Source: Cafeteria roenbergensis
Lineage: Eukaryota > Sar > Bigyra > Bicosoecida > Cafeteriaceae
Direction of reading: 5' to 3'
Length of the DNA: 64,000 nt
NCBI GenBank assembly: GCA_008330645.1
Contig: VLTN01000011.1
Span: forward strand, 186,001-250,000
Shown here: piece after piece, positions 16,299 through 32,363 of the stretch
How the letters are laid out: every line of letters starts with the position of its first letter
Numbering within the stretch: the first letter of the stretch is position 1
The notes under the pieces: generated by a model
Databases searched by the model: none
What the model saw: the letters and a program-made list of their open reading frames with translations, nothing else
What the model was told of the DNA's origin: nothing
Position numbers and translations under genes: made by a program

Positions 16299-19200
16299 CT
16301 ATGGGGGCCAGCACCTCTCCATGAGCTTCAAACACATCACGTAGCGCGGGTGCTCCTCGCCAACGGCAGACGCGTAGACTTGCGCACTCCGCTCCAGCAT
16401 CCGCAGTGCGGCGCTGAATTCTCCCTTGCCGAGCTGACATTGAGCCATCGTGTACAGCGTGTCCGCAAAGCTCGGGTGAGACTCGCTCAGCGAAGAGGCC
16501 TGGATGTCCCTGCACCGCTCCAGTAGCTCCAAGGCCGCATCGTACTCGCCCATGCTGTGCAGACACTGCGCCGTCGTCATGAGCGTCGTGGCGAACACTG
16601 GATGGGATTTGCCCAACGACCTGGCCTGAATGGCTTGGCATCGAAACAGCAGCAGCAGGGCCTTGCCCTGCTCGCCGGACAGCAAGCGGCACTGCGCCAT
16701 CGTGCGCAGGGTTGTCGCGAAGACAGGGTGGTCTTCGTCCCCGGAGGAGGCGAAGATGGCACTGCATTGCTCTAGCAGCTTCAGCGCTGCCGCGACTTCT
16801 CCCTTTCGAACCCGACACTGCGCCTTCTTGAGCAGGACAATCGCGAAGCTCGGGTGGTCTTCACCCGCCGAGCAGGCGAAGATGGCGCTGCATCGCTCCA
16901 GCAGCCCCAGCGCTGCGTCATATCCGCCTTTGTGCATGTGGCATTGCGCAATCTCCATCAGCGTGGCGCCCAAGTCTGGGTGCTCGTCGCCCACAGTTGC
17001 GGCCCGGATGAACTTGCACCGCTCCAGCAGCTCGAGCGCCGCATCGTACTCGCCCTTGTGCAAGTGGCACTGAGCCATTGTGAACAGCGTGCTCGCGAAG
17101 CTAGGGTGGTCCTCGCCCACAGTTGCGGCCCGGATGGACTTGCACCGCTCCAGCAGCTCGAGCGCCGCATCAGGCTGGCTCTTTTGGCATCGACACTGCG
17201 CCATCTCGTGCAGCGTGCTCGCAAAATTCGGGTGGCCTTCACCCACCGAGCAGGCGAAGATGCCCCTGCACCGCTTCAGCAGCTCCAGCGCCCCGTCGTA
17301 ATCGCTCTGGCTTTTGAGACACTGCGCTCTCGAGACTAACGCGATGGCAAAGCTTGGGTGTTCCTCGCCCACTGAAGCAGCCAAACTGTCCGCGCACCGC
17401 TCCAGCAGCTCGAGCGCCGAATCGTACTCGCCCTTGTGCAAGCGGCACTGTGCCATTGTCAGAATTGCGTGCGCGAAACCCGGGTGGGCCTCGCCCACCA
17501 TGGAGGCGAAGTGGTCTCTGGATTGTCCTAGCAGCTCAAGCGCCGTGTCGAACTCTCCATTGTGAATCTGGCACTGCGCCATAGTGAGAAGTGCCTCGCC
17601 AAAGCCTGGGTAGGCCTCACCCTTCAGGGAGGTGAGCTTGGTCATGCACCGCTCCAGCAGCTCAAGTGCCGCACCATACTCGCCCCGCTCCATCCGGCAT
17701 TGCGCCATTGTGTGCAGCGTACGGGCCACGCATGGATGAGCCTCGCCCAACGACGAGCTAACGTTGCCCCAGCAGCACTCCAGCACCTCCAGCGCCTCGA
17801 CGTACTCGCCCTTGAACATACGGCACTGCGCTATCGAGAGAAGCACTTCGGCGGCACTCGGGTGGCCCATTTCAACTGACGATGTGAAAATGCGCCTGCA
17901 CTGCTCCAGAAGTCGCAAAGCCGCGTCGAACTTGCCCTTCAGCAAGCAGCACTTTGACATCGTGAGAAGTGTGTCACCGAAGGCAGGGTGATCTTCGCCA
18001 ACCGTCGACATCTGTAGGTCCTTGCAGCGCTCCAGCAACTCAATCGCTAGATCAACCCTCCCCATCTGCATCTGGCATTGCGCCGACGCGCGAAGTGTGT
18101 CGCCGAAGCAAGGGTGGGTCTCCCAATCGAGACGCAGCAACAAACTCCTGTGACTCTCCAGCAGCTTCAGAGCAGCCGTATATTCGCCTTTGGCCATGTG
18201 GAGCTGCGACCTCACAAGCAGCGTTGCTGCGGAGTCGGGGTGGTCCTGGCCAAATGAAGAGGGCTGAATGTCCTCGCACCGTTCCAGCAAGTCCAGAGCA
18301 GCATCGAGACGGCCCATCGCCATTCGGCACTGCGCCATCGTTCGAAGCAAGCGACAAGCGCTGCTGTCGCTAGTTCCCGCAGGCGAGGCCTGCTTGGTTT
18401 TGCACTGCTCCAGCAGGTCCAGCGCCGCACCGAAATCGCCTCGCTCCATCAGCCTGCGAGCGCATGCGAGGCAAGCCCCTCCTGCAGGCTCGCCCCCAGA
18501 CGCGCACGAGTCGTCTGCAAGCGATTTAAGGAGACACAGTACCTCAAGCTCGCTGTCCACTGACGCGCGTGCACAGGTCCGTGCCAGCCTGCGCACCGTT
18601 TCGCCTTGCCGATGGCACCAGCCCACGCCGCACAGGCGCTGGCTCAGCCACAGCCCGTGAAGCTGAGATGCAATCAACTGCCTGGATTGCGGCAAACAGC
18701 CGCTTCCAAACGAAAGCGCAGATCCACGCCGCTCGCGATGCAAGCCAGCCCCGGACACCTTCACACGCCGGCTGCATCGCCGCTGCGTGGCCTTCCACAC
18801 TTGGACGGCAGACGCGCCTCCTTCACTCATTGCTTTGGCCATGCGAACCGCCTCTCTCGGGCTCACGCCTCGCCCCCTTGCTGCCATCCCTCGGGCCACG
18901 CAGCACGCTGTGAGCCAGCTGGTGCCCCCATCCCGTCCGCCTTCTGCCGACGAAATCAGGCTCTCCAACGCCGCTGCCCCACTCGAGCCTGGGCTCGGCA
19001 GGCTCGCACACGCCGCAGCAGTCTCGAGCAGTGCTCGGGAGGGCCCTTCAGTCGCGCTCGTCCCTGTCTCCGCCGCGTCCAGCAGCCTGCATAAAACCAC
19101 CCATGCGTGCCGCAGACCCAATCCGCGGGCGTGCAGCCCAGCCTTGACCGCGCTCCGGACAGACCCGAAATCGTCTCCCTGCCCGAGACGCACGCAATCG

Positions 19201-20993
19201 CTCAGCTGCCTCAGCACTGCCTTTGCAGCCAAGCTGGAATTGGCAGTGCCAACCAGCACGGCATGTGCCTTCAAGAGGCTGGCCAGCGCTTCTCCCTCGG
19301 GGTCAGCTCCTCCAGCCATCACAGCATCGGGAGAGACGGGCTCGACCCCTGCCTCCCGCAAAATCGCTGCTGCCTCGGGACGAAAGAGCGCTGTCAAGTG
19401 GGCAGCCCTCCAGTACATGTTGGGATGCGGCAAGAGTACCCTGAGCCTCCCCTCGAGCGACTGTAAAACCGACACGCCGCAGCACGACGACAGCGCGTCG
19501 AGCTCGACCTCCCGCCAACTGTTGTGGGGGACGAAGCAGGGCGCTAGCCCGGCTTGCCGCGCCGCCTGGCTGGCTCGGCCACCGACGGTCGCCTCGCTGA
19601 CGGACAGCGACACAACCCGCATCACCGAAGCCATCGAGTCCCCTGCTGCAGCATACCACACCACTGCCGTGGGGGCAAGCCCACCGCCATCGTCGCCGCT
19701 GACCACATCGGGGATGCAAAGCCGGTGCGTGTCCAGCAGCACCACCTCGCCCCACGGCAGCGCGTGCAGCTCCACGTCGAACGGCAGGGGTGCGGTGGCT
19801 CCGCTGGCCACGGCAGACTCGGTGACCGTGTGCTCCGCGTGCACCGGCCGCAGCGGATCCAGCACCACGCAGTGCTCCGCCTCCACCTGCGCGCACACCC
19901 CCGAGCTCTTGGCCGCATCCCTGCCCGCCCCCACGCGCTCCAACAGCGCATCCATCGCGAGGCCAAGCCTGGGTAGCCGGCTCGGGTCCCTTTCGCCCGT
20001 GACTGTCCGGTACTCGTGCTGCTGCCGCACCGCGTGCCGAGGCGTGAAGCAGCTCGGCGCAAGGTGCAGCGCCGCCGCCAGCCGTGCAGCGGCCTCGCCC
20101 AGCGCCCCGCAAGCGTGATACGTGTGTCCTCCATCGCTCGACCCCACCCGCAACGTGTCGCCGCTGACAGCGTGCCGCGAGAAGCCCTGCACGCGGTACA
20201 CCCGCTCCGGCCGACCAGCCGCGTCGCGCACCGTCACGTCCACGCACGACGCCAGCGGCACCGTCAGCAGCCGCGCCGCGTCCGCATCGTGGAGGTGCGT
20301 GAGCATGGCCAGCTCGTGCTTGGCCGCCTTGTCCGCCATCACTGAGGAGCCCTGGTAGATGCCCACCGTGTCCTCGGCGATCTTGAAGAAGGCCCCCGTG
20401 CTGGGATCAGCAACCTTGACGCCCCCCGCAATGCCTGCGTCCACCACCTGGAGCGCCTCACCGCCCCGCAAGCGGCCCATGCACTCCTGTGTGATGGCCT
20501 GCAGCGACCTGGCGTCGCCGCCGCGCTTGCGCTGCTTGGCGTCATGGAAGGCCCGGGCGATGGCGTCGGCGGCGCCCTCGGTGATGTGTTGGAACTCTCG
20601 CCTGGCCTGGGCAAGGTCCTGCAGGCGCTCTTGGTGCTCGTGGCGCATGAGGGTTGGCATGTTGCGCAGGCGCATGGCGCGCTCGCCCACTGTCTCGCGT
20701 TCAGGCTCGTCTGAGGCGTGCACATCGGTCGGGCAGGACAACACGGGCGGCCCAGTGCGTCCGGCTGCTTGGCCCAAGTCCTCGTGCACTGCCTGCACCG
20801 CGGCGTCCCGAAATCCGAGGCTCGCGTGGCGACATGCACAGCCGCTGGCTGCACGCGTGCCAGCTGGGCTTGATGGGTCCTCCCCGGCCACGGGAGCGAG
20901 TTCGCAATCTCTGCAGACGACGCCACCGCCGCGACCGCCTGGGTCGCGGGCATCCACTGCAGACGGTGGCCGGACTCCGGGGACGCAGCGCAA
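16299..20993 (-). CDS. Clu-like domain protein with C-terminal kinesin-light-chain-type TPR array
   Basis: 1,564 aa. Residues ~180-720 resemble the Clu domain of CLU/CluA proteins: FFKIAEDTVGIYQGSS, then DKAAKHELAML, a 'VYR...GSSDGGHTYH' block, PFDVELHALPWGEVVLLDTH (compare Clu 'DVEGH-G-DGR-YLLD'), then LFRPEAAAIL and AGLHARGLGLRHAWVV, which echoes the family's 'lH-RGIN-RhlG'. Residues ~850-1564 are about 17 TPR units of exactly 42 residues with consensus YDAALELLERC...VGEDHPSFA.TL.TMAQC...KGE. Clu proteins bind mRNAs for mitochondrial proteins and control mitochondrial distribution, and many end in TPRs. The same function here is inference because the Clu match is distant. The start is uncertain: Met107 (nt 20675) is an alternative, and an upstream exon is possible. 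A paralogue lacking TPRs lies at 29244-32363. Confidence 0.7.
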   Translation of the reverse strand: MRCVPGVRPPSAVDARDPGGRGGGVVCRDCELAPVAGEDPSSPAGTRAASGCACRHASLGFRDAAVQAVHEDLGQAAGRTGPPVLSCPTDVHASDEPERETVGERAMRLRNMPTLMRHEHQERLQDLAQARREFQHITEGAADAIARAFHDAKQRKRGGDARSLQAITQECMGRLRGGEALQVVDAGIAGGVKVADPSTGAFFKIAEDTVGIYQGSSVMADKAAKHELAMLTHLHDADAARLLTVPLASCVDVTVRDAAGRPERVYRVQGFSRHAVSGDTLRVGSSDGGHTYHACGALGEAAARLAAALHLAPSCFTPRHAVRQQHEYRTVTGERDPSRLPRLGLAMDALLERVGAGRDAAKSSGVCAQVEAEHCVVLDPLRPVHAEHTVTESAVASGATAPLPFDVELHALPWGEVVLLDTHRLCIPDVVSGDDGGGLAPTAVVWYAAAGDSMASVMRVVSLSVSEATVGGRASQAARQAGLAPCFVPHNSWREVELDALSSCCGVSVLQSLEGRLRVLLPHPNMYWRAAHLTALFRPEAAAILREAGVEPVSPDAVMAGGADPEGEALASLLKAHAVLVGTANSSLAAKAVLRQLSDCVRLGQGDDFGSVRSAVKAGLHARGLGLRHAWVVLCRLLDAAETGTSATEGPSRALLETAAACASLPSPGSSGAAALESLISSAEGGRDGGTSWLTACCVARGMAARGRGVSPREAVRMAKAMSEGGASAVQVWKATQRRCSRRVKVSGAGLHRERRGSALSFGSGCLPQSRQLIASQLHGLWLSQRLCGVGWCHRQGETVRRLARTCARASVDSELEVLCLLKSLADDSCASGGEPAGGACLACARRLMERGDFGAALDLLEQCKTKQASPAGTSDSSACRLLRTMAQCRMAMGRLDAALDLLERCEDIQPSSFGQDHPDSAATLLVRSQLHMAKGEYTAALKLLESHRSLLLRLDWETHPCFGDTLRASAQCQMQMGRVDLAIELLERCKDLQMSTVGEDHPAFGDTLLTMSKCCLLKGKFDAALRLLEQCRRIFTSSVEMGHPSAAEVLLSIAQCRMFKGEYVEALEVLECCWGNVSSSLGEAHPCVARTLHTMAQCRMERGEYGAALELLERCMTKLTSLKGEAYPGFGEALLTMAQCQIHNGEFDTALELLGQSRDHFASMVGEAHPGFAHAILTMAQCRLHKGEYDSALELLERCADSLAASVGEEHPSFAIALVSRAQCLKSQSDYDGALELLKRCRGIFACSVGEGHPNFASTLHEMAQCRCQKSQPDAALELLERCKSIRAATVGEDHPSFASTLFTMAQCHLHKGEYDAALELLERCKFIRAATVGDEHPDLGATLMEIAQCHMHKGGYDAALGLLERCSAIFACSAGEDHPSFAIVLLKKAQCRVRKGEVAAALKLLEQCSAIFASSGDEDHPVFATTLRTMAQCRLLSGEQGKALLLLFRCQAIQARSLGKSHPVFATTLMTTAQCLHSMGEYDAALELLERCRDIQASSLSESHPSFADTLYTMAQCQLGKGEFSAALRMLERSAQVYASAVGEEHPRYVMCLKLMERCWPP
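16302..18444 (-). repeat. ~17 tandem copies of a 126-bp TPR-coding unit
   Basis: Each 126-bp unit encodes one 42-residue kinesin-light-chain-type TPR. Spacing is perfectly regular with no indels, and neighbouring copies share long nucleotide blocks such as the segments encoding ALELLERCK and AATVGEDHP. Copies ~10-13 are closest to each other. This suggests expansion by unequal exchange. Confidence 0.85.
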
Positions 20994-21738
20994 GTGCTAA
21001 GGACCATCGGCACATCGCGAGCGCCTTTTTCGAAGCGTCGCCCGCTGCCTGGCCACGGCGCACCACGCGCACTCTCCCCCCCTGGGCGACGATGGGCGCA
21101 TTCTCACTTGTTGCTGGACTGTCTCGAGGCTCAGTCCGTGCCACGAATCTGGGAGTGGCGGACAGAGCTGCGCCTTGGCTTGAGGCACCGTCGCCGGCGG
21201 GTGATCGATTGCCAGCGACCAAGTCCGGAGCCCAACACGGCAGGGCGCGCCCACTGATGCGCCCGTTGGGCTCGCCAGCTCGAGCAATAGTCGCGAGTCC
21301 GGGCAGCACGCAATCCAACGCATCGCGCGCTGCACGCTGCTGCTGGGCGACAGCAACCCTGCATGCGTCGCAGCCCCGGGGGCAGCGCAGATGGGACCCC
21401 GAGGTCCGTGCGATATGGCGCAGAACTCGTCGAGGGCAACCACACCATGGGCAGCGATGCAGGGCGCCATTGCGATCTCGCGAACCACACCAAAGGGTTG
21501 ACCCAGATCGGTGTGCTGACCGATTTTCTCAGCGGGCCGGGGCGCGAAGCTTCCTTCGCGAGTCTGCTTCGTCTGCGCGTCAATTTCAAAGTCGCGACCG
21601 CGCGTGCGTGCCTCGTCAATGCGCAGAGTGACACCTCCCTCGACCTCTTGCTTGACCAGCACACATACACCACTTGCGAGCTCGCTCCAAAAGGCAGTGG
21701 AAATTAACCGTGCGCCAGCCAAGCTTGGCCAGCTCGGG
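20994..21738. other. Intergenic region with ambiguous coding signal
   Basis: 745 nt lie between the Clu-TPR gene start and the stop of the next minus-strand gene. Two frames in opposite orientation look partly protein-like: + 21363-21707 (about 114 codons) and - 20997-21863 (about 288 codons). Each has only ~60-70% GC at third positions, well below the true genes, so neither is called. It could be the promoter plus an upstream exon of the Clu-TPR gene, or a decayed gene. Confidence 0.4.
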
Positions 21739-23784
21739 TCACGGCTCGCTGTGCCTAGCACCCTCCAATGGCCACGCCTCCCCGGCCTCCCACGCGCCAA
21801 GCGACTCGACCCCATCCTCCATGTCGTCGCCTCCGGGCGCGCCACCGTGCCGAGTCGGGCCACCGTCAGGAAGGCTGCCAGCGCGCGATCCTGGCAGGGG
21901 CCGGCGGAACAACGAGGGGGTGCCCTCTGCTGCGACGCCGCTGGCTGCCACTGCGCTCCTCACCCATCCGGCGGCGTCGGCCAAATGCTCCGCCGCGTCC
22001 ATGGCCTCTTTCCCTTCTGCTCTGGCGCGCCGCGCGGCCGCCCCGTCCTGGCCCTGCCTCAACGCCTCCGCCCTGGCGCGGTGCTCCGCTGCCTCAGTTC
22101 GCAAGCGCGCGATCTCCGCCATCACAGCGTCTTGGTCGACCGCAGCAGTGCCTTGACCCTCCTGTGCAGGTCGCTCACGGCTTGCTGGCCGCCGACCCCG
22201 CCCCGTCGTCGGCCCCCCCTTGGACGCCGCGGGGGGACTGCCGGTCCCCTTGCCCCGATCGGGCCCACGCACCCCGTCCCTCGTTTCAGCCCGCTGCGCC
22301 TGCGCTGGACGCACAACCCCTGCCCCCGACGCACGCGACCGCGCCCCCCTGCGACCGGGCCCCGCGGCGCTCGCGCGCGCAGCCGTGCCACCGTCCTCCG
22401 CCTCCCTCGCCTCCGACAGCCTCACTGCCTGGGCCGACAGCCGCGCGAGCCTCCTCCTCTCAGCCGCCAGCGCCCGCGCAGTCGGCCCGGCGCGCAGGTC
22501 ACCAGCCTCCGACTTGCTCCCTGCTCGCCCTTGCCGGTGGCGCCCTCCCCGCCCCGCTCCCCTCCCCCGCTGCCCTCTGCCGCGGGCAGCGCTGCCGGAC
22601 CGCGGTGGCGTCGCCCCTCGCTCGCCTCTGGCAGCCGGCGCCACCGCTAGCCCCTGCGGCTCGCGGGCGCCTCGCTCGCCCGCGCTCTCTGCCGCCTGCT
22701 CACGCGCGCCAGCACGTCCAGCCGACCACCACGGCGCACCCGATGCAGAGCCAACGCCAGACCGCCCCCTCCGAAGCGCGCTCTGGGGCCTTCGCGCCGG
22801 CGCCGCGCCCACGGGGCGCCTCGAAGCCGGAGCAGCAGCGGCCGCCCCCGACGGCCCCAGCCCCCTCCCCCGAACGCTGGGGGGAGGCACCGCCGCGCTC
22901 CTGGCCGCTCCCGCTGCCTCAGGCCGGCCGATCCGCGACCGGGCCGCTGAGCGCGACCCGCTCCTAGCAGCGTGCTTGCCAGGCACTGGGCGGCCTTGAG
23001 CCCGCTGCCAGCAGCCGCCGTCGTCGCCGCCGCCGTGTTCGCCGTCCTCGGACGGGGCGTAGGAGGAAGAGGAGGAGGAGGAGGAGGAGGGGGAGGAGCC
23101 CCTGCGCGCAGCTGATCGGCGCGGCGCGGGCGGCGCTGGCTCTGGTGCTTGCACAGGCGGGGATGCCCGAACAGCCGCGCGCCCTGACCCGTCGCTGCTG
23201 CCGCAGCTGGCGCTGCTGCTCCTGCGGGCCCTGCTGCGGCTGCGGGCGTCGGTGTCGGCGCGCTCCGTTCGGGCGTCGCGGTCCGATGCGGGCGCGGGGC
23301 CGGGCGCGGGCGCTGGCGCTGGCGCCAGGGCGGCCGACGGAGCAAGGGGGCGCCACGACGGCGCGCCCGTCTCCCATCGGGGCGCGTACCGGCGCGGGGG
23401 CGGCTCGCGCGAGCTGCTGGTTGCAGCGGCCGCGGCGTCTGGGCCTGCAGAGCGGCCTGGACGTGGCGGCGCGTCGAGCTTGGCGTCCAGGCCCGCGCGC
23501 CGCGCCACAGCGAGCGGGTTTGCTTTGCCAGACGCCATGGCTTGCAGCGACGCGATGGTCGCCTGGGCCGCCGCCTCGGCCTCCTCGATTGCCCACGCGA
23601 GCGCGGACGCCTGCTTGCGCGCGCCTGCCACCCTCTGGCCGTCCGCGGCATCGGCGGCACGCGGGCTTGGCGGCCGGGCGGCTGGAGCAAGTTCTGTCCC
23701 GAAGGCAGCCCGCGCCGCGCGGTGCAGAAACTGCGCAGCGTCGTCGTACTCGCGCGCCGCCGTTGCCGCAGTTGGCCAAGCCAT
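21739..23784 (-). CDS. Unrecognised Ala/Arg/Ser-rich, mostly disordered protein
   Basis: 681 aa from Met at 23784; the frame is open further upstream, but this Met starts the most protein-like segment. The N-terminus (about residues 1-100: AAREYDDAAQFLHRAARAAFG, AIEEAEAAAQATIASLQAM) is predicted helical and faintly recalls MIT- or TPR-like helical hairpins. The middle is low-complexity with Pro-Ala runs, a poly-Ser tract and Arg/Ser dipeptides. The last ~100 residues (DAVMAEIARLRTEAAEHRARAEALRQG) look like a short coiled coil. No catalytic motif is visible. It is divergent from PEX16 with a 375-bp spacer. I do not recognise the family; introns within the low-complexity part cannot be excluded. 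Confidence 0.55.
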   Translation of the reverse strand: MAWPTAATAAREYDDAAQFLHRAARAAFGTELAPAARPPSPRAADAADGQRVAGARKQASALAWAIEEAEAAAQATIASLQAMASGKANPLAVARRAGLDAKLDAPPRPGRSAGPDAAAAATSSSREPPPRRYAPRWETGAPSWRPLAPSAALAPAPAPAPGPAPASDRDARTERADTDARSRSRARRSSSASCGSSDGSGRAAVRASPPVQAPEPAPPAPRRSAARRGSSPSSSSSSSSSYAPSEDGEHGGGDDGGCWQRAQGRPVPGKHAARSGSRSAARSRIGRPEAAGAARSAAVPPPSVRGRGLGPSGAAAAAPASRRPVGAAPARRPQSALRRGRSGVGSASGAPWWSAGRAGAREQAAESAGERGAREPQGLAVAPAARGERGATPPRSGSAARGRGQRGRGAGRGGRHRQGRAGSKSEAGDLRAGPTARALAAERRRLARLSAQAVRLSEAREAEDGGTAARASAAGPGRRGARSRASGAGVVRPAQAQRAETRDGVRGPDRGKGTGSPPAASKGGPTTGRGRRPASRERPAQEGQGTAAVDQDAVMAEIARLRTEAAEHRARAEALRQGQDGAAARRARAEGKEAMDAAEHLADAAGWVRSAVAASGVAAEGTPSLFRRPLPGSRAGSLPDGGPTRHGGAPGGDDMEDGVESLGAWEAGEAWPLEGARHSEP

Positions 23785-24159
23785 GAGATTGCCGCGCGGG
23801 CCAGGGCACGTAGCGCAGCTCAGGCCGCCTCGCGCACCCAATTCACTGCGCCACGACTTGCGTGCACTTGTCACCCGACTGCGGCTGCGATGCGGGACTG
23901 GGCGGCGGGGAGCAGGCGGCCAAGTGTGGCTGCACGCCCGCAACTCGGACGCGAATACCGCTCCAACTCAGAACGCCGTCAGCGCATAGTCGTGGCCGAC
24001 CCCGGCAGCTCCTGCAGAGTCCCGCGCGTCGCCCGAAAGCGGCAACATGGGGCGAGCTCAACCCTGCGCTCGCACCTGCGCGCGCTCCCCGTCGCGCAGC
24101 GGGAGGCTTGCTCAAGGCGGCACAGCTCGCCGCATCCTTCACCGGCTCCGTCGCCCGGC
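23785..24159. promoter_or_regulatory. Divergent spacer upstream of PEX16
   Basis: 375 bp between two divergent start codons must hold both promoters. No motif stands out. Confidence 0.4.
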
Positions 24160-26136
24160 ATGGCATCTCCTGGCGAGCAGGCAGGGCAGTCGCGATCTCA
24201 AGGGGCTGCCCTGAGCGCCGACGAGTGCGATGCGCTGGCGCGACGCTCCCCGCTGCCGGCTCCCCGTCTGCCAGCGACGGGCAACGGCGTGCCGGCTGGT
24301 GCCACCCCTCTCGTGCCGACGGGCGCGACTGCGCCTTCGCGCGCGCCCAGCTCTGGCGCCGGCGCAGCCAGCGCAGCCGCCGCCGCCGCCGGCGCACCTT
24401 CAGGCGCCGCTGCCGCCAGCGTGTTTCCCTTTGAGATTCCGCCCTCGCTCGAGCCCGCTGCGTACGCCCAGTGGATTCGGGCGGATGCCGCTGGTCGGCG
24501 CGCGCGCCGAATGGAGGAGGTGCTCAGCACGCTCACCCTTGTCTTGCCGAGCCTCTTGGGCAGCGCCGGCGAGGTGGTGAGCGAGGGCATGACAGCACTC
24601 TCTGGCCTGCTCTCCATGCACCACGCGGTGCTGCTGCGCGGCGACCCCACCCTGGCGGCCGCTCGCCGCGAGCGGGCCCGCGCGGCGGCGGCGGAGGCAG
24701 CAGGGTCCCGGACCGCCCGCCTCCCGCTCGCCCCCGAGACGGAGCGCATGCTGCAGTGGGCGCTTTCCGTGATTGGAAACGTTGACGCGGTTGTTGAGAT
24801 TGCCGTGCTGCGCGCCGCGGGGCCCAAGGCCCGCTGGGTGTCCGTGGCTGGTCTGGAGACTGCGCGGGCGGCACTCAAGCTGGCGCTGCTGTGGCAGGGG
24901 CAGCACCGCAGGGCCAGGGGCGACGCTGACGCGCCCCGACACTTGATCAACGGCGGGAGGGTCGACTTCGACCCCGCCCAGCAGCCCGGGGCGGCCGCTG
25001 CGGCGCCGGCGGGGAGCGCGCCGGAGCCGGACACGCAGCGTGCGGCCCTGGCAGCGGCGTGGGCGGCAGCGGCCGGCCGCTCCAGCGCCGACGCGGCAGA
25101 GGCTGCGCCGCCCCCCGCCACCGCGGCAGAGGCAGACGGAGCGGGGGAGGCCGCGAGGGCGTCAGCGGCCGCGGCCGCGGCGGGGCCTGGCGACGCAGCT
25201 GCCGCCCCTCTCTCTCGCCTGGCGTCGGCAGCGGAGGCCGGGGCAGAGACCGAGGCCGCCGGCAGCGCCTCCGCAGCGTACTGGGAGGGCTCCAGGTCCG
25301 GTGTGCGGCTCTGCATTCCCGCCGGCGTCGGGGCGGAGGCGACGGCTTCGGCAGAGGCGGAGGGCGCGGGGCGCGACCTGGACGCTGCGGCAGCGCCCCT
25401 GCGCGCCGCGGCGGAGGTCGCCGCCATCCTGCGGCCCGCGGTGTACGCTGCTGGCAGAGCCGCAATGCCCGGGGAGGGCGCGGCCGCGCCTTGGCTGCCC
25501 TGGCTCGCCTCAGCCGCGCTGGACGCGGCATCCTTCAGCCTCGTCGCGGCAGCCGAGCACAGGGCGAGCGGCGTTCCTGCCAGCGACGCCCGCCCTCCGC
25601 CCTCGCGCACGGAGTCCGCGCTGGAGTCCGTCGCGGCGGCGCTGGGAGCGTGGGCGGCGCCCGCGCCGGCGAGGGCGGGAGCGTCCGCCGAGGACATGCT
25701 GACGCTGCCCCCCGCCAGCCTCGCCAGCGTTGCGACCGGCGTGTCGGCAGCAGTGGCCGCCACAGGCGCAGCAGGGGGGGCCGCCCCCCCCGCCCCCACC
25801 CCCACCTCCACCTCCTCAACCCCCGCCGCCGCCCCGGCCGCGCTCTCTCTCCCGTCCGCCATCGCTCGCCAGCTGGTCTTCTGGTTCATCAGCGGCAAGG
25901 GCTCCCGCCACTCCACTCTGTCCACGGTGGAGGCCGGCGAGCTGAGCCGGCGGCAGTGGGCCCTCCTCTTCTACTTCACCAGGGACCCCATCTGGTCGGT
26001 GCTCACCAAGCCGGCGCTGGAGCGCATCCTCGGCCCGCTAGAGAGCATCCCGCTGCTGGGCATGGCCATCGGCCCCATTCGCTCCATGGCAGAGTACTAC
26101 CAGTCCCTGCACTCGCAGACGGCGGGCGCTGTGTGA
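24160..26136 (+). CDS. PEX16: Peroxisomal membrane biogenesis protein PEX16, enlarged by Ala-rich inserts
   Basis: 658 aa, about twice the usual 330-360. PEX16 is an integral membrane protein that recruits PEX3 and starts peroxisomal membrane assembly at the ER. Conserved blocks appear in the family order: AYAQWIRADAAGRRARRMEE followed by LTLVLPSLLG (N-terminal helices); ERMLQWALSVIGNVDAVVEI and ARWVSVAGLETARAALKLAL (match 'LLTWLSVLECVEVFMEMGA...RWLVIALVQLAKAVLRM'); WLPWLASAALDAASFSL (match 'WKPWLLAGVVDVTSLSL'); and the C-terminal ELSRRQWALLFYFTRDP with the family's 'RR-LLLYYLLRSPFYD' pattern. The extra length is Ala/Pro/Glu-rich sequence before residue 90 and between the central and C-terminal blocks. 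The start at 24160 (MASPGEQAG) is the first plausible Met. Strong assignment. Confidence 0.88.
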   Translation: MASPGEQAGQSRSQGAALSADECDALARRSPLPAPRLPATGNGVPAGATPLVPTGATAPSRAPSSGAGAASAAAAAAGAPSGAAAASVFPFEIPPSLEPAAYAQWIRADAAGRRARRMEEVLSTLTLVLPSLLGSAGEVVSEGMTALSGLLSMHHAVLLRGDPTLAAARRERARAAAAEAAGSRTARLPLAPETERMLQWALSVIGNVDAVVEIAVLRAAGPKARWVSVAGLETARAALKLALLWQGQHRRARGDADAPRHLINGGRVDFDPAQQPGAAAAAPAGSAPEPDTQRAALAAAWAAAAGRSSADAAEAAPPPATAAEADGAGEAARASAAAAAAGPGDAAAAPLSRLASAAEAGAETEAAGSASAAYWEGSRSGVRLCIPAGVGAEATASAEAEGAGRDLDAAAAPLRAAAEVAAILRPAVYAAGRAAMPGEGAAAPWLPWLASAALDAASFSLVAAAEHRASGVPASDARPPPSRTESALESVAAALGAWAAPAPARAGASAEDMLTLPPASLASVATGVSAAVAATGAAGGAAPPAPTPTSTSSTPAAAPAALSLPSAIARQLVFWFISGKGSRHSTLSTVEAGELSRRQWALLFYFTRDPIWSVLTKPALERILGPLESIPLLGMAIGPIRSMAEYYQSLHSQTAGAV

Positions 26137-26672
26137 ATCCCGACGGACCGCCCCGCCGAGCGGCAGCTGTGCCATTGCCACGCGCGGCCCTGTCTGTCGT
26201 CGCGAGCGGTGGGCACCCGCAAGGGCCGCGCGGGCCGGTGGCGCGGCTGCCGCCCGAGCCGCAACCGCTGCAAAAAACAAGATCGAATTCGCAAACGCGC
26301 GCGGCTTGGCTGAGCCCGGGTCCTGGCGCCCACCCAGCGCGCGCGCAAGCGGGGCAAGGCTGTGGCAGCGGGAGTGGGAGCCCGAGCGTGGCAAGGGCCG
26401 CGCCTGGCCATCGAGTGCGGCTCTATGGTCAGCGTTCGCCGCCCAGCCCAGCACGCGCGAGCAACACGCCAAAGCCGGCGCGCCTGTGCATGCTGCGCCC
26501 AAGCCGTTGAGGCGCGTGTGTCCGTCTCGACCTAAGGGCTGCCAGCCACCCAGGCCACCCGAGAGCCAAGCCAACGCATTTGGCGGCGCGCACACTCACG
26601 GGCACAACTCACAAAGAGGCAGGGGGGGGTGTGGGCGGGCCGCGCTCTAGTACACTCGCGCAAGCATAGCGG
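26137..26672. other. Convergent 3' intergenic region, no gene seen
   Basis: It lies between the PEX16 stop and a 53-bp repeat array next to the following minus-strand gene. Nothing coding-like is seen; presumably 3' UTRs. Confidence 0.55.
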
Positions 26673-26799
26673 GCGCCGCTCGGCCTCCTCTGCCGCGCTC
26701 AGCGGCGGCCTGCTCCGCCGGCACGGCGCCGCTCGGCCTCCTCTGCCGCGCTCAGCGGCGGCCTGCTCCGCCGGCACGGCGCCGCTCGGCCTCCTCTGC
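26673..26799. repeat. 53-bp tandem repeat, ~2.4 copies, spanning a stop codon
   Basis: Identical units begin at 26681 and 26734, and a partial copy at 26787 extends into the coding sequence of the flanking minus-strand gene. Each unit carries the gene's terminal codons and its TGA stop. Because 53 is not a multiple of three, the distal copies are out of frame with the gene. Confidence 0.9.
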
Positions 26800-27717
26800 T
26801 GCGGACATCAGAGCCTCGATGTCAGCCACAGACGGGGCCGCGTCCTCCCCCCGCCCGCCGCGCCGAGCAGGGGCCCCGCCTGCCGCCGATCCGTCCGATC
26901 CTTCCTCCGCGTCGTGAGCTCCGTCGGCGCCGTCTCCGCCCCTGCCGCTGCCGATTCCCATGTCAAGGCCCTTTCCGCCGGCCTCGAGCAGGTTCCCGCC
27001 CTTGTGGGACAGCATGTAGCGCACCACGGGCAGGAATAGGCCGCCCACAGCGCCGAGCGCCGCGTACCAGACCACGGTGGCGGTGGGCGAGGTCATGCGA
27101 AACAGCACCGCAGGCGCAGCCTTGGACGAGTCGCGCACCAGCGCAACGAGGGCGCCGGCAATGCCCCCCGTAACCGCTTGGCTCGCGGTGGTGTCTGCGC
27201 CGCTCGCGCCATCGTTGTGGCGCGGGCCGATGCGAAGCTGGTCCTCGGCAACAACCTGCGCAGTGCCGGCCAGCACGGCCCAGCCGACCGGCCGCGCAAC
27301 CACGCCCGAGGCGTATGCGAAGACCTTCCCCATGCGCTGCAGCCGCGGAAGCTCCCTGCGGTTGATTTGCCGAAACAGAACGCGCGCAGATGCGCTGCTG
27401 GTGGACTGGCTGGCGGGCAACGCGGCTTCGTAGCAGGCCAGCTCCAGCTTGCCCTTGCCAACCCTCCCGCGGCTTGGCGCCTGACCCAAGGCTGGCACCC
27501 GCACACGCACGCGGGATTATCCCGCTCACTTCCATGCGGCCGTCGGTGCCAGGAGGCGCGCGATGGCGGCCGGGCCTCCGACGTAGAGGAGCACTGGCAC
27601 TGCCGCCAGCGCCGTCTGCGCGAGCGTCGCTTGCAAAATGTCAGTCATGCTGGCTTGCCGCAGGCGGCGGAGCGCCTCAGCATACTCGGCACTCGAGCGC
27701 TTTCGTTGGCCCTCCAT
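26752..27717 (-). CDS. Unrecognised small, probably multi-pass membrane protein
   Basis: Proposed exons are 27717-27530 and 27463-26752, joined across a 66-nt intron (GTGAGC donor; acceptor CGGGAG), giving 299 aa with the reading phase preserved. Exon 1 starts MEGQRKRSSAEYAEALRRL and carries a hydrophobic stretch (LAQTALAAVPVLLYVGG). Exon 2 adds more: ARPVGWAVLAGTAQVV, AVTGGIAGALVALV and ATVVWYAALGAVGGLFLPVV, whose GxxxG-rich spacing vaguely recalls Tim17-type or other mitochondrial inner-membrane proteins. The C-terminus is charged and low-complexity, ending SAAEEAERRRAGGAGRR. The acceptor choice is the weakest point: other AGs nearby give the wrong frame. It is divergent from the NIP30-like gene (190 bp between starts). 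I do not recognise the family. Confidence 0.5.
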
Positions 27718-27907
27718 CCTTCCGGGCTTGCGGGCGGCGCGGTGCTCGCACCTGGCAGCGCCGGTCGCCTTGCGAAGCAACACCCTGCTCGCCTCTGCCG
27801 GAATCGCGCTGCGGCACCAGGCGGGCCGCACCTCCTATCCGGGTCGGACGCCTAGCCCCTGAACAGGTAGCGTATCTGCCTTTCCTCGCCTGGTTGGCTC
27901 GGGCGTC

Positions 27908-28660
27908 ATGAGCCTCGGGGACGGGTTCGAGGCGGCGGAGGTGCTGCAAGTGACTGAGACGGGCAAGTTTGACACCAAGGCCATCAAGCAGGGCGACGAA
28001 GGACCGCGCGACCTGCTCATCCTGAAGCAGCGCGAGCTCGAGAACCCCGGGGCAGCTGCCGCAGCGGAGGCGGCTTCCCTTGCCCGAGAAAATGGAGCAG
28101 GCCTGGGCACACACCCGGAGCAAACGCCCAAGGACCGCGTGCAGGCGCTCATGGGCTCGCGCGGGCTTGAGGACGACGAGGTGGAGTTCTTGGACGGCGT
28201 TCGCTCCAAGGCGTTGGCGAAGGAGCGCGCTGCCAAGCGGGCGCGCGAGGAGGCCGAGGACGAGTTTGATGCCGCGCTGCGAGAGCGCGTGGTGGCGACC
28301 GCCGGGCCGGTTGCTGGCATTGCTGTCAAAGCGGACGGCAATCTGTTGCCCCCCGCAGCCCCTGGCGCGTCGGCAGCCTCGATCTCGGCTGCAGCCGCTC
28401 CCTCGACTATGGGCCGCGGGCTTGCTGACGCCAAGCGTGGCTCTGCCAAGTCGTCGCACTTTGCTCTCATGATGGCGAGGCGACAGCGGCCAGCGGCCAG
28501 CCCCAGCTCCAGCTCCAGCCCTTCGGCGGCGGCCCGCGCTGGCCCAGCCCCGTCGTGCGGACAAGAGTCTGAGCCGAAGCGGCCGCGCCAGGCTGCAGCG
28601 CTCTCCAGGGCTGCCGCAGCCATCGCCACCTACGCTTCGTCGGACTCTGAGAGTGACTGA
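27908..28660 (+). CDS. FAM192A/NIP30 (PIP30/Fyv6) N-terminal-domain protein
   Basis: 250 aa, single exon. The central segment RGLEDDEVEFLDGVRSKALAK (residues ~79-100) closely follows the NIP30 signature 'RGLDEDEVEFLD-V', and it is followed by the expected Arg/Lys/Glu helix (ERAAKRAREEAEDEF). In animals the family member PIP30 binds the proteasome activator PA28-gamma; the yeast member Fyv6 works in the second step of splicing. Which role applies here is unknown. The rest is Ala/Ser-rich, and the C-terminus (SDSESD) is serine-acidic, like CK2-phosphorylated tails known in PIP30. ATG 27908 is the first in frame, 190 bp from the divergent membrane-protein gene. Confidence 0.8.
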   Translation: MSLGDGFEAAEVLQVTETGKFDTKAIKQGDEGPRDLLILKQRELENPGAAAAAEAASLARENGAGLGTHPEQTPKDRVQALMGSRGLEDDEVEFLDGVRSKALAKERAAKRAREEAEDEFDAALRERVVATAGPVAGIAVKADGNLLPPAAPGASAASISAAAAPSTMGRGLADAKRGSAKSSHFALMMARRQRPAASPSSSSSPSAAARAGPAPSCGQESEPKRPRQAAALSRAAAAIATYASSDSESD

Positions 28661-28883
28661 ATCAAGAGCGCGTTGGACGCTGGCCCGTGGTCCGGCGCAG
28701 GACCGTGTGCCTGTGGCGCAGCTGGCACGGCCACGCTTCAATTTCGCTTCGCAGGCAAGCCTCGCCCCGACGCTGGCGCTGCCACGGGGGCCGGCTGGCT
28801 CGTGAAATTCCCACTGTTGCCGTTGCCTGCGAGCGTGGCAGGGGCACGGGCGCCGTTTAACCGCCCCTTGGAACCCCAAGGCT

Positions 28884-28911
28884 GGTGTGTGTGTGTGGGG
28901 GGGGGGGGGGG
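28884..28911. repeat. GT run followed by 15 G
   Basis: A short (GT)n stretch runs into an uninterrupted G15 tract in the convergent spacer. It is a candidate slippage site and a likely sequencing-error hotspot. Confidence 0.9.
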
Positions 28912-29055
28912 CGGCTTGGCAAGGCGCGCTCGTTCCGCCAGCATCGCGAAACCGCCTCACGCATGTGCAAGCCTGCTCGCTGCAGTCGAACGAGCGGTGC
29001 AGCTCTCCAAACCACGGGCCCAGAATCATCCAGTCCGTCCCGCCGGCAGCCCGTT

Positions 29056-29118
29056 GCCCGACGGCGCGCTGCTCTCCTCGGCAGCCCATGGCCCGACGGC
29101 GCGCTGCTCTCCTCGGCA
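29056..29118. repeat. 35-bp tandem duplication
   Basis: Two 28-nt identical blocks begin at 29056 and 29091 (period 35) in the 3' intergenic spacer. Confidence 0.85.
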
Positions 29119-29243
29119 GTCCGTGCGGCGCCGCAGCCAGCCCGTGGAATGCCATCGAGACCCAAGTCGGCTTGCGGAACCAGCGCGCCGCTCGGCGCCA
29201 CCACGGACGTTGCGCGCTCTTTGGCCACCGATGAGCTGCAAGG

Positions 29244-32200
29244 CTAGCGCGCCGCGCGCGCAGCGCTGACGATGGCGTCGCCCAGCCTGCGATCCGCTTT
29301 GCCAACAGTCTCGCCAATGGCAACCGCCTCGGAGATGCGCTCATCTGAACCTTGCGCAGTGTATTTCCACAACAGAACAAGCAGCTGCAGCGCCACGAGC
29401 GCGCTCAGCTCCGCCGCGCCGGATTCCACTGCGGCCAGAAGCAGCTGCTGCAGCGGCAGCACCAACTCCAGCTCCTCTGTGACCAGCGCCTGGCACCAGC
29501 GGAGCTCCCGCGCTGCAGTGCGCACGGCCGCCGAAAAGTCACCGCCCAACGACGGCGTGCCATGCAAGGGGGAGCTGGCCGTAGCCCCGCGCCCTCGCAC
29601 TGGTCCCGGCGTTGTGGGCGCGTGGGGAGCAGAAGCAGCGCCTGCCACCTCCGCGTCGGCCGCACGCGCTTCGGCCACGCTGTCGTCTGTGGCGGTTGCA
29701 AACACGAAACCGCCCTCCGAGTCGTCCGTAGCCCCCGTTTCCAGAGCGTCGAGGTGGTCTGGCCCGCCCGTCGGACCTGCGTCGCTCAGAAGGCCATCCC
29801 CGCCTTGGGCGGCCGCGCCGGCCAGGCCGTCACCGCCCAGCCCCGCGCCTGTCGCAGGCCGCAAGAAGGCGGAGCTTCCCCGCTGCCGCTGCAGAGCGAG
29901 CCACGTGCGGCACAGGCCGGCATGCCGGACGACAAGCCGCGCCAGGGACGCCGCGTCCCGCGCGCTCGTGGTTCGCCCCTTGCTGGCGACTGCTCGCGCA
30001 GCGATGACTGCGACAGGCCAGTCCCCGTCGCCCAGCGCCGCCAGCCGCTCGAGAGCCACCCCCGCGCAGCTCCCCGGGCGGGGAAGGCAAGCGCAGACGA
30101 GAGCCTCGTCCAGCAGCGCGCTTTCCTCGATATCCCCGCGCGCTGCCGCTGCGTGAACAAAGGCAACATGCCTCAGGCCGAGGCCTCGCAAGTGCAGGCC
30201 CTGCTTCACTGCGCCGCGAAGCGAGAGAATTCGCTCCATGGCGGCATCGCCTTCCGAGGAGTCGCCCCCCGACTCCAGCACAGCGGCAGCGGCCTGCACC
30301 GCAGCCAGCACGGCGCGCGCAGCGGCAGCGGTGTTCCTGGGCCCGAGCAGCGCCGCTGTTGCAGCCACAGCCGACTTCCCGTCGTCCGTGAACACGTCAT
30401 CAGGCGACACCGCTGGACCCCCAAGGCTGCGCAGCACCGCGCCGGCGCCTGGCGGAAACAGGGCTGTGATGAAGGGTGCAGCCCAGAGCTTCTGCGGCTG
30501 CGGCAGCAGCGCCACAGGAGCGCCGTCCGGGCTGCAAAGCAGCTGCGACCCGCACTGCCGCGCGAGCTCGCCCGCTGCACTGTCATCGCCTCGGAGGCAC
30601 AAGCCCTCGGCGCCGCCGTGCGCGCGGGATGCCTCCTCGGCCGCCTTCACAAGCGCACTTGGCTGCAATTCTGAAGCAGCCGCCGCGTCGCTCACGTACA
30701 CCCCCTCCGGCCCAACGCCCACGACCACGCCCAAGTCCCAGTGTACCACGGGCACCTCGGGAATCGCCAGCCGGTGCGCGTCCACCAGCAGAAGCTGCCC
30801 GCTCGGAAGCCCGTGGACCTCCACGTCGAACGGCAGCGGCAGCTGGCCGGTGCTGCAAGCCGATGCAGCCCTGCTGCTGCTACACCTGTTGCTGCCGCTG
30901 CTGCTGCTGCTGCGAGGTGCGCCAGCCTGGGTCGTTTCCGCGGCTGCCGCTCCCTGGAATCCCGCTGCCATAGCGGCAGCCAAAGCCTCGTCCACGTCGT
31001 CCTGGTCGCCGTCGGCGGCAGCGATGTCCGGTGCATCGCCGAAACCCGGCGGCGGGACGGGCAGCTTCACGGTCTCCCACTTCGCCGTGAAGTGGTAGAG
31101 CGGGTCAAGCCGCACCCCGAGCAGCGCCTCCAGCTCGGCGCAGCGCCCTTCTGTTGAGTACAGCCTCGGACTGGCCCCGAGGGTATCCAGCCACTCGAAC
31201 AAGCGCCCGTCGCCCGGGAGCTCTGGCGCGAGCCTGCGGCCAGCGCTCACCAGAACGCGCGAGTGATCCACAACGACGCCTTGCGACGGCTGAAACCGGC
31301 TCGGGGCCACGTGGCAGAGGTCAGCCACGACGCGCGCGCGCTTCGCCACCGCAGCGCAACTGTGCACCGTGAGGCCCCCATCGCCCGACCCGAGCCGCAG
31401 CGACTCCTCTCCCACAGGCAGGTTGAGCGACGCCATCACTCGATACACGGCCACTGCGTCGCCGCCACTGTTCCGAGCGATAATGTCCGTCACCGTCGAA
31501 GGCGACACCATTAGCCCGGCTGACTCCTGGTATCGCGCGCAAAGCCAGCGGCACACACTCGCCTCGCGCTTCGCGGGCTTGCCTTGCATCGCCGAGATCC
31601 CTTGAAAGACGCCCTCGCTGTCGTCCGCGATTTTGAAAAACATTCCATTCTCCGTGTCCACCACCTTCGCCCCCCCTGCGATGCCTCCGATGTGGGGGCG
31701 AAGGGAGCCTTCGGGCCGGTTCCGGGTCAGTTCCGCGGAAAACTGCCTGGCAAACGTCGGACCGGCTGGCAGTTGCTGTTGGGCTGCGCCAGTTCCGTCA
31801 GCGGGTGCTTTGGCTCTCCTGGCTTGAGACGCGGCATCGCTCGAGGACCCCGCTTCAACAGCGGATCGGAGCTCGTCCTTTGCCGCATGGAACGCCTTGG
31901 CGACGGTCACTGAAGCCGCTTGAGCTCGAGCGGTGAAGGCTGCCAGGCTGCCAACCTCCCGGTGCCCCGCCTCGCTCGCCGGCCTGCCCCAGCGGATGCT
32001 GGTCTGGAATGACTGGAGAAAGGGCGCCGCCTCTGCTGCCGCAGGCGGCCCGGAGGAGGAGCTTCCAATGGAGCTCGGGCTTGCCAGTCCCCGGAGGCTG
32101 GGGCTTTGCGGACTCCAGCAGCTTGGGGTCCGGGGAATCTCCTGCGCCCAGTGCAGGCGCCCCCCGTCCGAGCTCCCGGCAGTTGAAACCGCATTGCTTC

Positions 32201-32363
32201 CCTGCGATGCCGCCCGGGCCAGGCTTGCGGTGCCCCGAAGGCTCGAGGAGGCCGAGCCAGCCGAAATGGCCGGGCCAACCGCCGGCGCGCGCCCACGCTC
32301 GCCCAGGGCTTGGCGGCCCTGTGCGCCCGTGGCACCGGCCATGGCGACCCGGCAGGCCTGCAA
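29244..32363 (-). CDS. Clu-like domain protein without TPRs (paralogue of the 16-21 kb gene)
   Basis: 1,039 aa from Met at 32363; Met 32342 is also possible. It aligns with the Clu-TPR protein along nearly its whole non-TPR part: GGIAGGAKVVDTENGMFFKI against GGIAGGVKVADPSTGAFFKI; LRLGSGDGGLTVHSC against LRVGSSDGGHTYHAC; PLPFDVEVHGLPSGQLLLVD against PLPFDVELHALPWGEVVLLD; KQGLHLRGLGLRHVAFVHAA against KAGLHARGLGLRHAWVV; CACLPRPGSCAGVALERL against CASLPSPGSSGAAALESL. It then stops after a helical tail instead of entering a TPR array. The N-terminal ~190 residues are Ser/Ala-rich and unlike the paralogue. Biochemical role unknown; a mitochondrial or RNA-related function is inferred only from the distant Clu match. 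Residues near 470-510 contain a Ser/Cys-rich insert. Confidence 0.7.
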   Translation of the reverse strand: MQACRVAMAGATGAQGRQALGERGRAPAVGPAISAGSASSSLRGTASLARAASQGSNAVSTAGSSDGGRLHWAQEIPRTPSCWSPQSPSLRGLASPSSIGSSSSGPPAAAEAAPFLQSFQTSIRWGRPASEAGHREVGSLAAFTARAQAASVTVAKAFHAAKDELRSAVEAGSSSDAASQARRAKAPADGTGAAQQQLPAGPTFARQFSAELTRNRPEGSLRPHIGGIAGGAKVVDTENGMFFKIADDSEGVFQGISAMQGKPAKREASVCRWLCARYQESAGLMVSPSTVTDIIARNSGGDAVAVYRVMASLNLPVGEESLRLGSGDGGLTVHSCAAVAKRARVVADLCHVAPSRFQPSQGVVVDHSRVLVSAGRRLAPELPGDGRLFEWLDTLGASPRLYSTEGRCAELEALLGVRLDPLYHFTAKWETVKLPVPPPGFGDAPDIAAADGDQDDVDEALAAAMAAGFQGAAAAETTQAGAPRSSSSSGSNRCSSSRAASACSTGQLPLPFDVEVHGLPSGQLLLVDAHRLAIPEVPVVHWDLGVVVGVGPEGVYVSDAAAASELQPSALVKAAEEASRAHGGAEGLCLRGDDSAAGELARQCGSQLLCSPDGAPVALLPQPQKLWAAPFITALFPPGAGAVLRSLGGPAVSPDDVFTDDGKSAVAATAALLGPRNTAAAARAVLAAVQAAAAVLESGGDSSEGDAAMERILSLRGAVKQGLHLRGLGLRHVAFVHAAAARGDIEESALLDEALVCACLPRPGSCAGVALERLAALGDGDWPVAVIAARAVASKGRTTSARDAASLARLVVRHAGLCRTWLALQRQRGSSAFLRPATGAGLGGDGLAGAAAQGGDGLLSDAGPTGGPDHLDALETGATDDSEGGFVFATATDDSVAEARAADAEVAGAASAPHAPTTPGPVRGRGATASSPLHGTPSLGGDFSAAVRTAARELRWCQALVTEELELVLPLQQLLLAAVESGAAELSALVALQLLVLLWKYTAQGSDERISEAVAIGETVGKADRRLGDAIVSAARAAR

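Follow-up and report, generated by a model that had tools for sequence, protein, structure and literature searches.

The window considered here, a stretch of 64,000 nucleotides from the flagellate Cafeteria roenbergensis (contig VLTN01000011.1, positions 186,001 to 250,000), carries two open reading frames (ORFs) on its minus strand, spaced 8.25 kb apart, that encode related proteins with a region resembling the CLU domain of the clustered mitochondria proteins. Gene 1 (P0001) adds to this region an array of 17 tetratricopeptide repeats (TPRs) of about 42 residues each, whereas gene 2 (P0002) has none (Table 1). Both are members of a dispersed gene family. In the young relatives of gene 1, the repeat units have been homogenised within arrays and the residues that map to the concave TPR groove have been replaced in excess of synonymous divergence, a combination that may point to a variable recognition repertoire.

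The two ORFs, their spacing and the difference in repeat content agree with a preliminary description of this DNA made from its letters alone. BLASTP aligns the two proteins collinearly, at 38% identity over 198 residues (E 8e-28) and 34% over 344 residues (E 1e-25), and all six blocks that the description had listed as shared occur in both in identical order, with a small correction to the wording of one of them (GIAGGVKV in gene 1, GGIAGGAKV in gene 2). Its further remark that gene 1 carries TPRs as typical CLU proteins do holds for the 17 repeats but misses the main point, namely that the array is of a fast-diversifying 42-residue type. The TTG starts of the ORFs merely reflect the use of a bacterial rule for calling ORFs. 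Gene 1 has no in-frame ATG before residue 107, and its true 5' end possibly lies in another exon.

Table 1. Genes 1 and 2 and their parts, in window coordinates
Feature	Position	Strand	Description and evidence
Gene 1 (P0001)	16299..20993	-	ORF of 1564 residues; first branch of the 18-gene TPR-bearing clade
Gene 2 (P0002)	29244..32363	-	ORF of 1039 residues; CLU-like relative without a TPR array
CLU-like region, gene 1 (residues 187-739)	18777..20435	-	BLASTP to gene 2; family alignment compared with CLU proteins by hhalign
Pfam CLU (PF13236) match, gene 1 (residues 199-316, profile 67-184 of 225)	20046..20399	-
17-TPR array (about 42 residues each), gene 1	16365..18485	-	17 matches; AlphaFold (AF2) model; Foldseek
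CLU-like region, gene 2 (residues 227-827)	29883..31685	-	BLASTP
C-terminal tail, gene 2	29247..29882	-	Low-complexity stretch followed by a part that looks helical by eye (probable); no match to TPRs

A family of dispersed genes

Searches of the genome (36,303,456 bases in 167 contigs, the single genome covered) with the CLU-like parts of genes 1 and 2 gathered at least 26 family genes, comprising 18 of the gene 1 type and eight outliers, gene 2 among them. All 18 genes of the gene 1 type have uninterrupted frames of 1300–1671 residues; that they are pseudogenes was considered and rejected on this account. Fourteen of them, referred to below as the young genes, are mutually 79–91% identical, three older genes on contig C22 are 69–74% identical to each other, and gene 1 shares 57–62% with the other 17, which are located elsewhere in the genome. 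The relatives of gene 2 in this genome are at most 46% identical to it wherever the compared stretch is longer than 100 residues.

The 42-residue repeat itself gave at least 130 matches genome-wide at E ≤ 1e-10, with scores for 150 of the 153 candidates, and outside the family frames only a tail on contig C48 and two short fragments were found. The tail (C48:3293-3814) consists of more 42-residue repeats past the frame of the C48 array, in a short frame with stop codons, and looks like the decayed end of an array; the two orphan fragments lie in small open frames at C22:252881-253102 and C57:21111-21371. As for an occurrence in viruses or prokaryotes, short-pattern scans of collections of viral contigs (16 pattern matches) and genome contigs (106) confirmed no relative. 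Half of the young genes (7 of 14, on contigs C56, C37, C36, C48, C7, C22 and C28) are no more than 20 kb away from the end of their contig, which might reflect a subtelomeric location; however, (TTAGGG)4 does not occur in the assembly, and the repeats themselves also break contigs. Among the papers listed by open-access literature searches, no title concerned a family that joins a CLU-like region to a TPR array, which is no proof that such a family has never been published.

The TPR array and its variable positions

Ten arrays of the gene 1 type are complete, with 10–18 repeats in steps of 42 residues and one double step in C22_335; the other eight of the 18, all from young genes, are partial in the DNA analysed. 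The young-gene sample comprises 157 repeats from 14 genes, in which the scaffold is nearly fixed (LGEEHPSFAxTLxTMAQCRxxKGEYDAALxLLERCRDIxASS) and entropy is concentrated at positions 10, 13, 20, 21, 30 and 39, with 1.99–2.79 bits compared to 1.71 at the next most variable position. These six sites occur in 144 different combinations among the 157 repeats.

An AF2 model of gene 1 residues 1160-1564, about its last nine repeats, built from window sequences only, has a predicted local distance difference test (pLDDT) score of 91.3 and places a regular pair of helices in every 42 residues, helix A at unit positions 6–21 and helix B at 25–42. When the unit is aligned to the 34-residue TPR by its glycine and alanine anchors (our alignment), positions 10, 13, 20 and 21 correspond to canonical TPR positions 2, 5, 12 and 13. 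Magliery and Regan (PMC1261162) list 2, 5, 9, 12, 13, 33 and 34 as the most variable TPR positions, all on the concave face, and report from two co-crystals that positions 2, 5, 6, 9, 12 and 13 contact the ligand. The chance of placing at least four of six variable sites in the five published groove positions of helix A is 6.4e-4. Canonical position 9 (unit position 17) is a conserved glutamine in our repeats, and positions 30 and 39, in helix B, are off the published list. The array of gene 1 varies at similar sites, its positional entropy correlating with that of the young arrays (rho 0.78).

Homogenisation and diversification of the repeats

By DNA, the nearest repeat is found in the same array for 82.4 of the 157 young repeats (ties shared) compared to 11.1 expected, or about half against 7%. 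Six pairs of repeats are identical over all 126 bases, every one of them within an array, and 36 pairs at 97% identity or more join different genes. A set of three or more repeats, each at least 85% identical to the others, is present in 10 of the 14 young arrays, but in neither gene 1 nor any of the three older C22 arrays.

Within the young arrays, the ratio of nonsynonymous to synonymous differences (pN/pS) at the six variable sites is 1.36 (1.17–1.54 by bootstrap over arrays), compared to 0.60 (0.54–0.69) for the scaffold, and exceeds 1 in 13 of the 14. A second measure, which avoids site picking and path counting, compares second codon positions with fourfold degenerate sites. Close pairs were taken as two repeats of one young array with a DNA identity of at least 90%; across the 372 such pairs, second codon positions differ in a fraction of 0.304 at the five published groove sites, and fourfold sites in 0.041; six positions chosen solely from the four older arrays differ in 0.218, the mean over all 42 positions is 0.056, and positions 10, 13, 20 and 21 singly reach 0.36–0.41. 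A further comparison across the young arrays gave 0.357 for the groove and 0.051 for fourfold sites, so that the excess is about sevenfold in both. Second positions of the six sites exceed fourfold divergence in 12 of the 13 young arrays that have close pairs. For these 14 genes, the nonsynonymous to synonymous substitution ratio (dN/dS) in the CLU-like region is 0.42 (0.28–0.55; 91 pairs). These calculations show that repeat units are homogenised within the young arrays, that replacement in the groove is in excess, and that the CLU-like module is under purifying selection.

Several observations weigh against taking these patterns as marks of a recognition surface throughout the family. In four of the 14 young arrays no three repeats reach 85% identity among themselves, and C29_244 has a six-site pN/pS of 0.90. 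In gene 1 the mean identity between repeats is 46%, no pair reaches 85%, and second positions of the published sites (0.485) are not above fourfold divergence (0.536), as is also the case in C22_335 (0.464 and 0.713). Because these two arrays show no excess, the signature of selection is read from the relatives of gene 1 rather than from gene 1 itself. The counting of pN/pS is crude for a GC-rich genome in which 72% of fourfold third bases are G, the repeat pairs depend on one another, and entropy served to choose the six sites, although the published sites and those picked from older arrays likewise exceed fourfold divergence in the young genes. Finally, scans for family domains revealed no known effector or signalling domain beside CLU.

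Part of this evidence would suit neutral repeat turnover, in which arrays grow and shrink and the variable sites are nothing more than surface residues free of constraint. Repeat arrays recombine readily and relaxed sites can vary, pN/pS in the older arrays is near 1 (1.11 in both gene 1 and C22_061), and the published sites of gene 1 and C22_335 do not outpace fourfold sites. Neutral sites, however, should not outpace the fourfold sites of the same 126-base unit, as the groove of the young arrays does about sevenfold over a constrained scaffold; the older arrays are near saturation, gene 1 and C22_335 included, and in the other two second positions still exceed fourfold sites (0.603 and 0.312 in C22_061, 0.615 and 0.495 in C22_226). 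Since groove replacement exceeds fourfold divergence, we regard neutral turnover as quite improbable. Gene 1 is an older, diverged member without the replacement excess.

Relationship to CLU proteins

The resemblance to CLU that the preliminary description had proposed is real but remote. The Pfam CLU profile (PF13236) matches 22 of the 26 family members at E ≤ 0.1, with a best E-value of 1.2e-6, and scores gene 1 at 23.9 bits over the whole protein (cut-off 24), 24.8 bits in another scan and 26.9 bits over the trimmed region. Gene 2 as a whole protein has no Pfam match at E ≤ 1, and is placed in the CLU family because it is homologous to gene 1. Aligned by hhalign, the 26-gene alignment matches five CLU-domain proteins of the same genome with a probability of 98.8 (E 5.8e-17, 184 columns) and an alignment of three CLU-only or RCC1-containing proteins at E 3.1e-18 over 285 columns, spanning the LPFDVE.H...LD.HRL block. 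With single proteins, C24, C1_468 and C1_843 are significant (E 7.7e-11 to 9.7e-10), compared to E-values of 0.24 or more for five shuffled sequences used as controls. Counting against homology, this comparison missed C53, the probable CLU orthologue (E 0.017), and C1_943 (E 0.059), and a search with a hidden Markov model of the family did not list any of these five proteins up to an E-value of 10. The portion after the CLU core is weak when taken alone, with a best E-value of 4.3e-4 at a probability of 34.

C53 has the CLU_N, CLU and eIF3_p135 domains, with TPR matches below the cut-off, and four further CLU proteins are encoded in the genome, of which one carries RCC1 repeats and another both eIF3_p135 and TPR. 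The CLU-domain frame at C1:462000-471900, at least 2948 residues long and with RCC1 repeats, represents a different CLU architecture. CLU_N (PF15044) has no match in the CLU-like regions of the 26 members or in gene 2, and is absent among the best 25 of 35 families for gene 1; eIF3_p135, the CLU middle domain (PF12807), is likewise without a match in the 26 CLU-like regions, in gene 2 or among the gene 1 families listed. By eye, the GLHARGLGLRH motif of the family resembles MHAMGINVRYLG of the orthologue, and an hhalign segment to C1_943 covers the motif with an E-value of only 0.16–0.22. A branch supported at 99/95 parts the 26 genes from the four other CLU proteins in the tree described below, which bears out the earlier idea of a separate subfamily. 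Judged by these comparisons, the family is a remote CLU subfamily and not a CLU orthologue.

Five residues of the CLU-like region are invariant in the family (K102, E125, D304, H308 and D319, numbered within window positions 18492-20687, minus strand). Their order, together with the predicted order of strands, resembles that of the catalytic residues in kinases, and is only a lead; the structure model of this region (pLDDT 34.6) is too poor to test a kinase-like fold, and a profile search yielded no solved relative at E ≤ 1.

Origin of the gene pair

A maximum-likelihood tree of 30 rows, which carries a long-branch warning, was computed without C53, whose CLU domain is split by insertions or introns. 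The 18 genes of the gene 1 type form a clade (98/100) in which gene 1 is the first branch and the other 17 group together (89/81). Gene 2 groups with C7_268, C17_478 and C5_841, all on other contigs (96/96, long branches), and the outliers C38_005 and C45_135 attach on the gene 1 side (82/94). According to Pfam, C7_268, C17_478, C5_841 and C38_005 carry TPRs; C17_270 and C54_050 have no Pfam match. Because its three companions in the tree carry TPRs, gene 2 has probably lost its array.

The preliminary description had explained the pair by local duplication of a CLU gene followed by loss or gain of the TPR array, as would seem natural for homologous neighbours on one strand. This does not stand up to the tree and the identities, in which gene 1 sits with 17 dispersed genes and gene 2 with three others, the two being only 34–38% identical to each other; the long branches of gene 2 and its tree neighbours leave some doubt about its placement, and we consider such a duplication very improbable. 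Alternatively, an ancient tandem duplication might long predate the 18-gene radiation, its copy with TPRs having founded the dispersed family; this would be compatible with gene 1 as the first branch of its clade and gene 2 nearby. Yet outliers attach on both sides, C38_005 and C45_135 to that of gene 1 and C7_268, C5_841 and C17_478 to that of gene 2, which makes several dispersed genes at least as old, and this scenario too is very improbable.

A family scan of eight neighbouring ORFs left two without a match; the ORFs at 23542-26136, 46157-49066, 49740-51677, 51698-53989 and 55410-60191 correspond to Pex16, a leucine-rich-repeat (LRR) protein, an ankyrin ORF adjoining a protein kinase ORF, and tripeptidyl peptidase II. 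By eye, the ORF at 10281-15089 on the minus strand, which contains HRDIKPSNF, resembles a kinase of the casein kinase 1/tau-tubulin type with a long low-complexity tail.

A possible recognition repertoire

We propose, with a probability of about one in two, that the family is a variable recognition repertoire whose likeliest use would be intracellular recognition of non-self, or of self versus non-self. In such a system, the conserved CLU-like module is linked to a superhelix of 42-residue TPRs, which would act as a variable binding surface. Repeat units are duplicated and homogenised inside the arrays, and residues of the concave groove would be altered by diversifying selection; each paralogue would probably bind a different ligand and pass this on to an output common to the CLU-like modules. 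The targets might be changing viral or bacterial proteins, or proteins that distinguish self from non-self. Gene 2 retains the CLU-like module, and its array has probably been lost. Ligand binding, an immune role, the common output and pressure from changing non-self are what we infer from the patterns of repeat evolution.

The same architecture could serve adaptors, either CLU-derived ones for mRNAs and mitochondria or kinesin-light-chain-like ones for cargo, with grooves diversified for many endogenous cargoes and not for defence. The CLU homology of the family points in this direction, as does the presence of the probable CLU orthologue in the same genome; cargo peptides are bound by TPRs like those of kinesin light chains, and peptide complexes of KLC1 and KLC2 are among the Foldseek matches of the array. 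Endogenous cargo alone does not predict recent homogenisation combined with replacement far above synonymous divergence, and we find the adaptor explanation rather unlikely. For the recognition repertoire, the marks expected of recognition occur on a CLU-like and not an NLR chassis, which yields a concrete list of genes and groove residues. To our knowledge, the receptor repertoires of single-celled eukaryotes are hardly known.

Comparison with known systems

The named CLU, or clustered mitochondria, proteins (CLUH, Clueless, Clu1/TIF31) bind mRNAs of mitochondrial proteins and are needed for mitochondrial distribution. The family resembles them in the CLU core, as detected by profile comparison, and gene 1 also in its C-terminal TPRs of the kinesin light chain type. 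It differs in having no CLU_N or eIF3_p135 match within the scans described above, longer arrays (10–18 repeats) and a multigene expansion. Within this genome, the CLU-only and RCC1 proteins are closer to the family than the probable CLU orthologue is.

Kinesin light chain is a motor adaptor whose coiled coil binds the kinesin heavy chain; in the family, what precedes the array is instead CLU-like. The family shares with kinesin light chains 1 and 2 the 42-residue TPR class and the fold, and Foldseek ranks KLC1 (6swu) first for the gene 1 array model. Kinesin light chain is described with six TPR motifs (PMC5642895), compared to 10–18 repeats here. The best solved sequence match of the gene 1 array, ahead of kinesin light chains, is PDB 4y6c (E 9.8e-26), which ranks 24 in Foldseek with 31% identity over 207 columns and a template modelling (TM) score of 0.84 by target length. 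This structure and 4y6w represent a putative kinesin light chain of Podospora anserina with near-identical 42-residue repeats; the solved fragment lacks a CLU module and comes from another host lineage.

The closest parallel in mode of evolution is found in fungal NLRs with repeats of high internal conservation (HIC). Dyrka et al. (2014, PMC4986451) describe, for Podospora NLRs, high internal conservation, polymorphism in repeat number and positive selection at concave TPR positions modelled on KLC2, and Ament-Velasquez et al. (PMC12222747) set out the same logic for WD40 sensors. The family shares with fungal HIC arrays (TPR, ANK and WD40 in Podospora) variation in repeat number and, in the young relatives of gene 1, an excess of replacement at concave positions. 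Set beside the fungal threshold of 85% identity over at least 100 residues, near-identical units appear in the family as three or more repeats mutually at 85% in 10 of the 14 young arrays, though not in gene 1 or the older C22 arrays. Here the variation is seen between paralogues of one genome (10–18 repeats), whereas the fungal comparison includes strains, and a CLU-like module in a protist, probably a stramenopile, takes the place of the effector and NACHT or NB-ARC domains. No NACHT or NB-ARC match was found in the 26 CLU-like regions or in gene 2, nor among the best 25 of 35 families for gene 1, and a six-frame, intron-blind scan of the genome gave one NACHT and no NB-ARC match. By this analogy, the arrays of the young relatives behave like an HIC sensor, and the family, which is not a member of the NLRs, would work like their repeat sensors without the NLR ATPase. 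A flagellate with NLR-independent receptors, built from a CLU-derived module and recombining TPR arrays with grooves tuned against viruses, bacteria or foreign self, is a tentative extension of this comparison. If it proves true, HIC arrays would have been recruited independently onto a different chassis outside the fungi. The pattern also hints that variable binders may quite generally be built through concerted evolution of near-identical TPRs.

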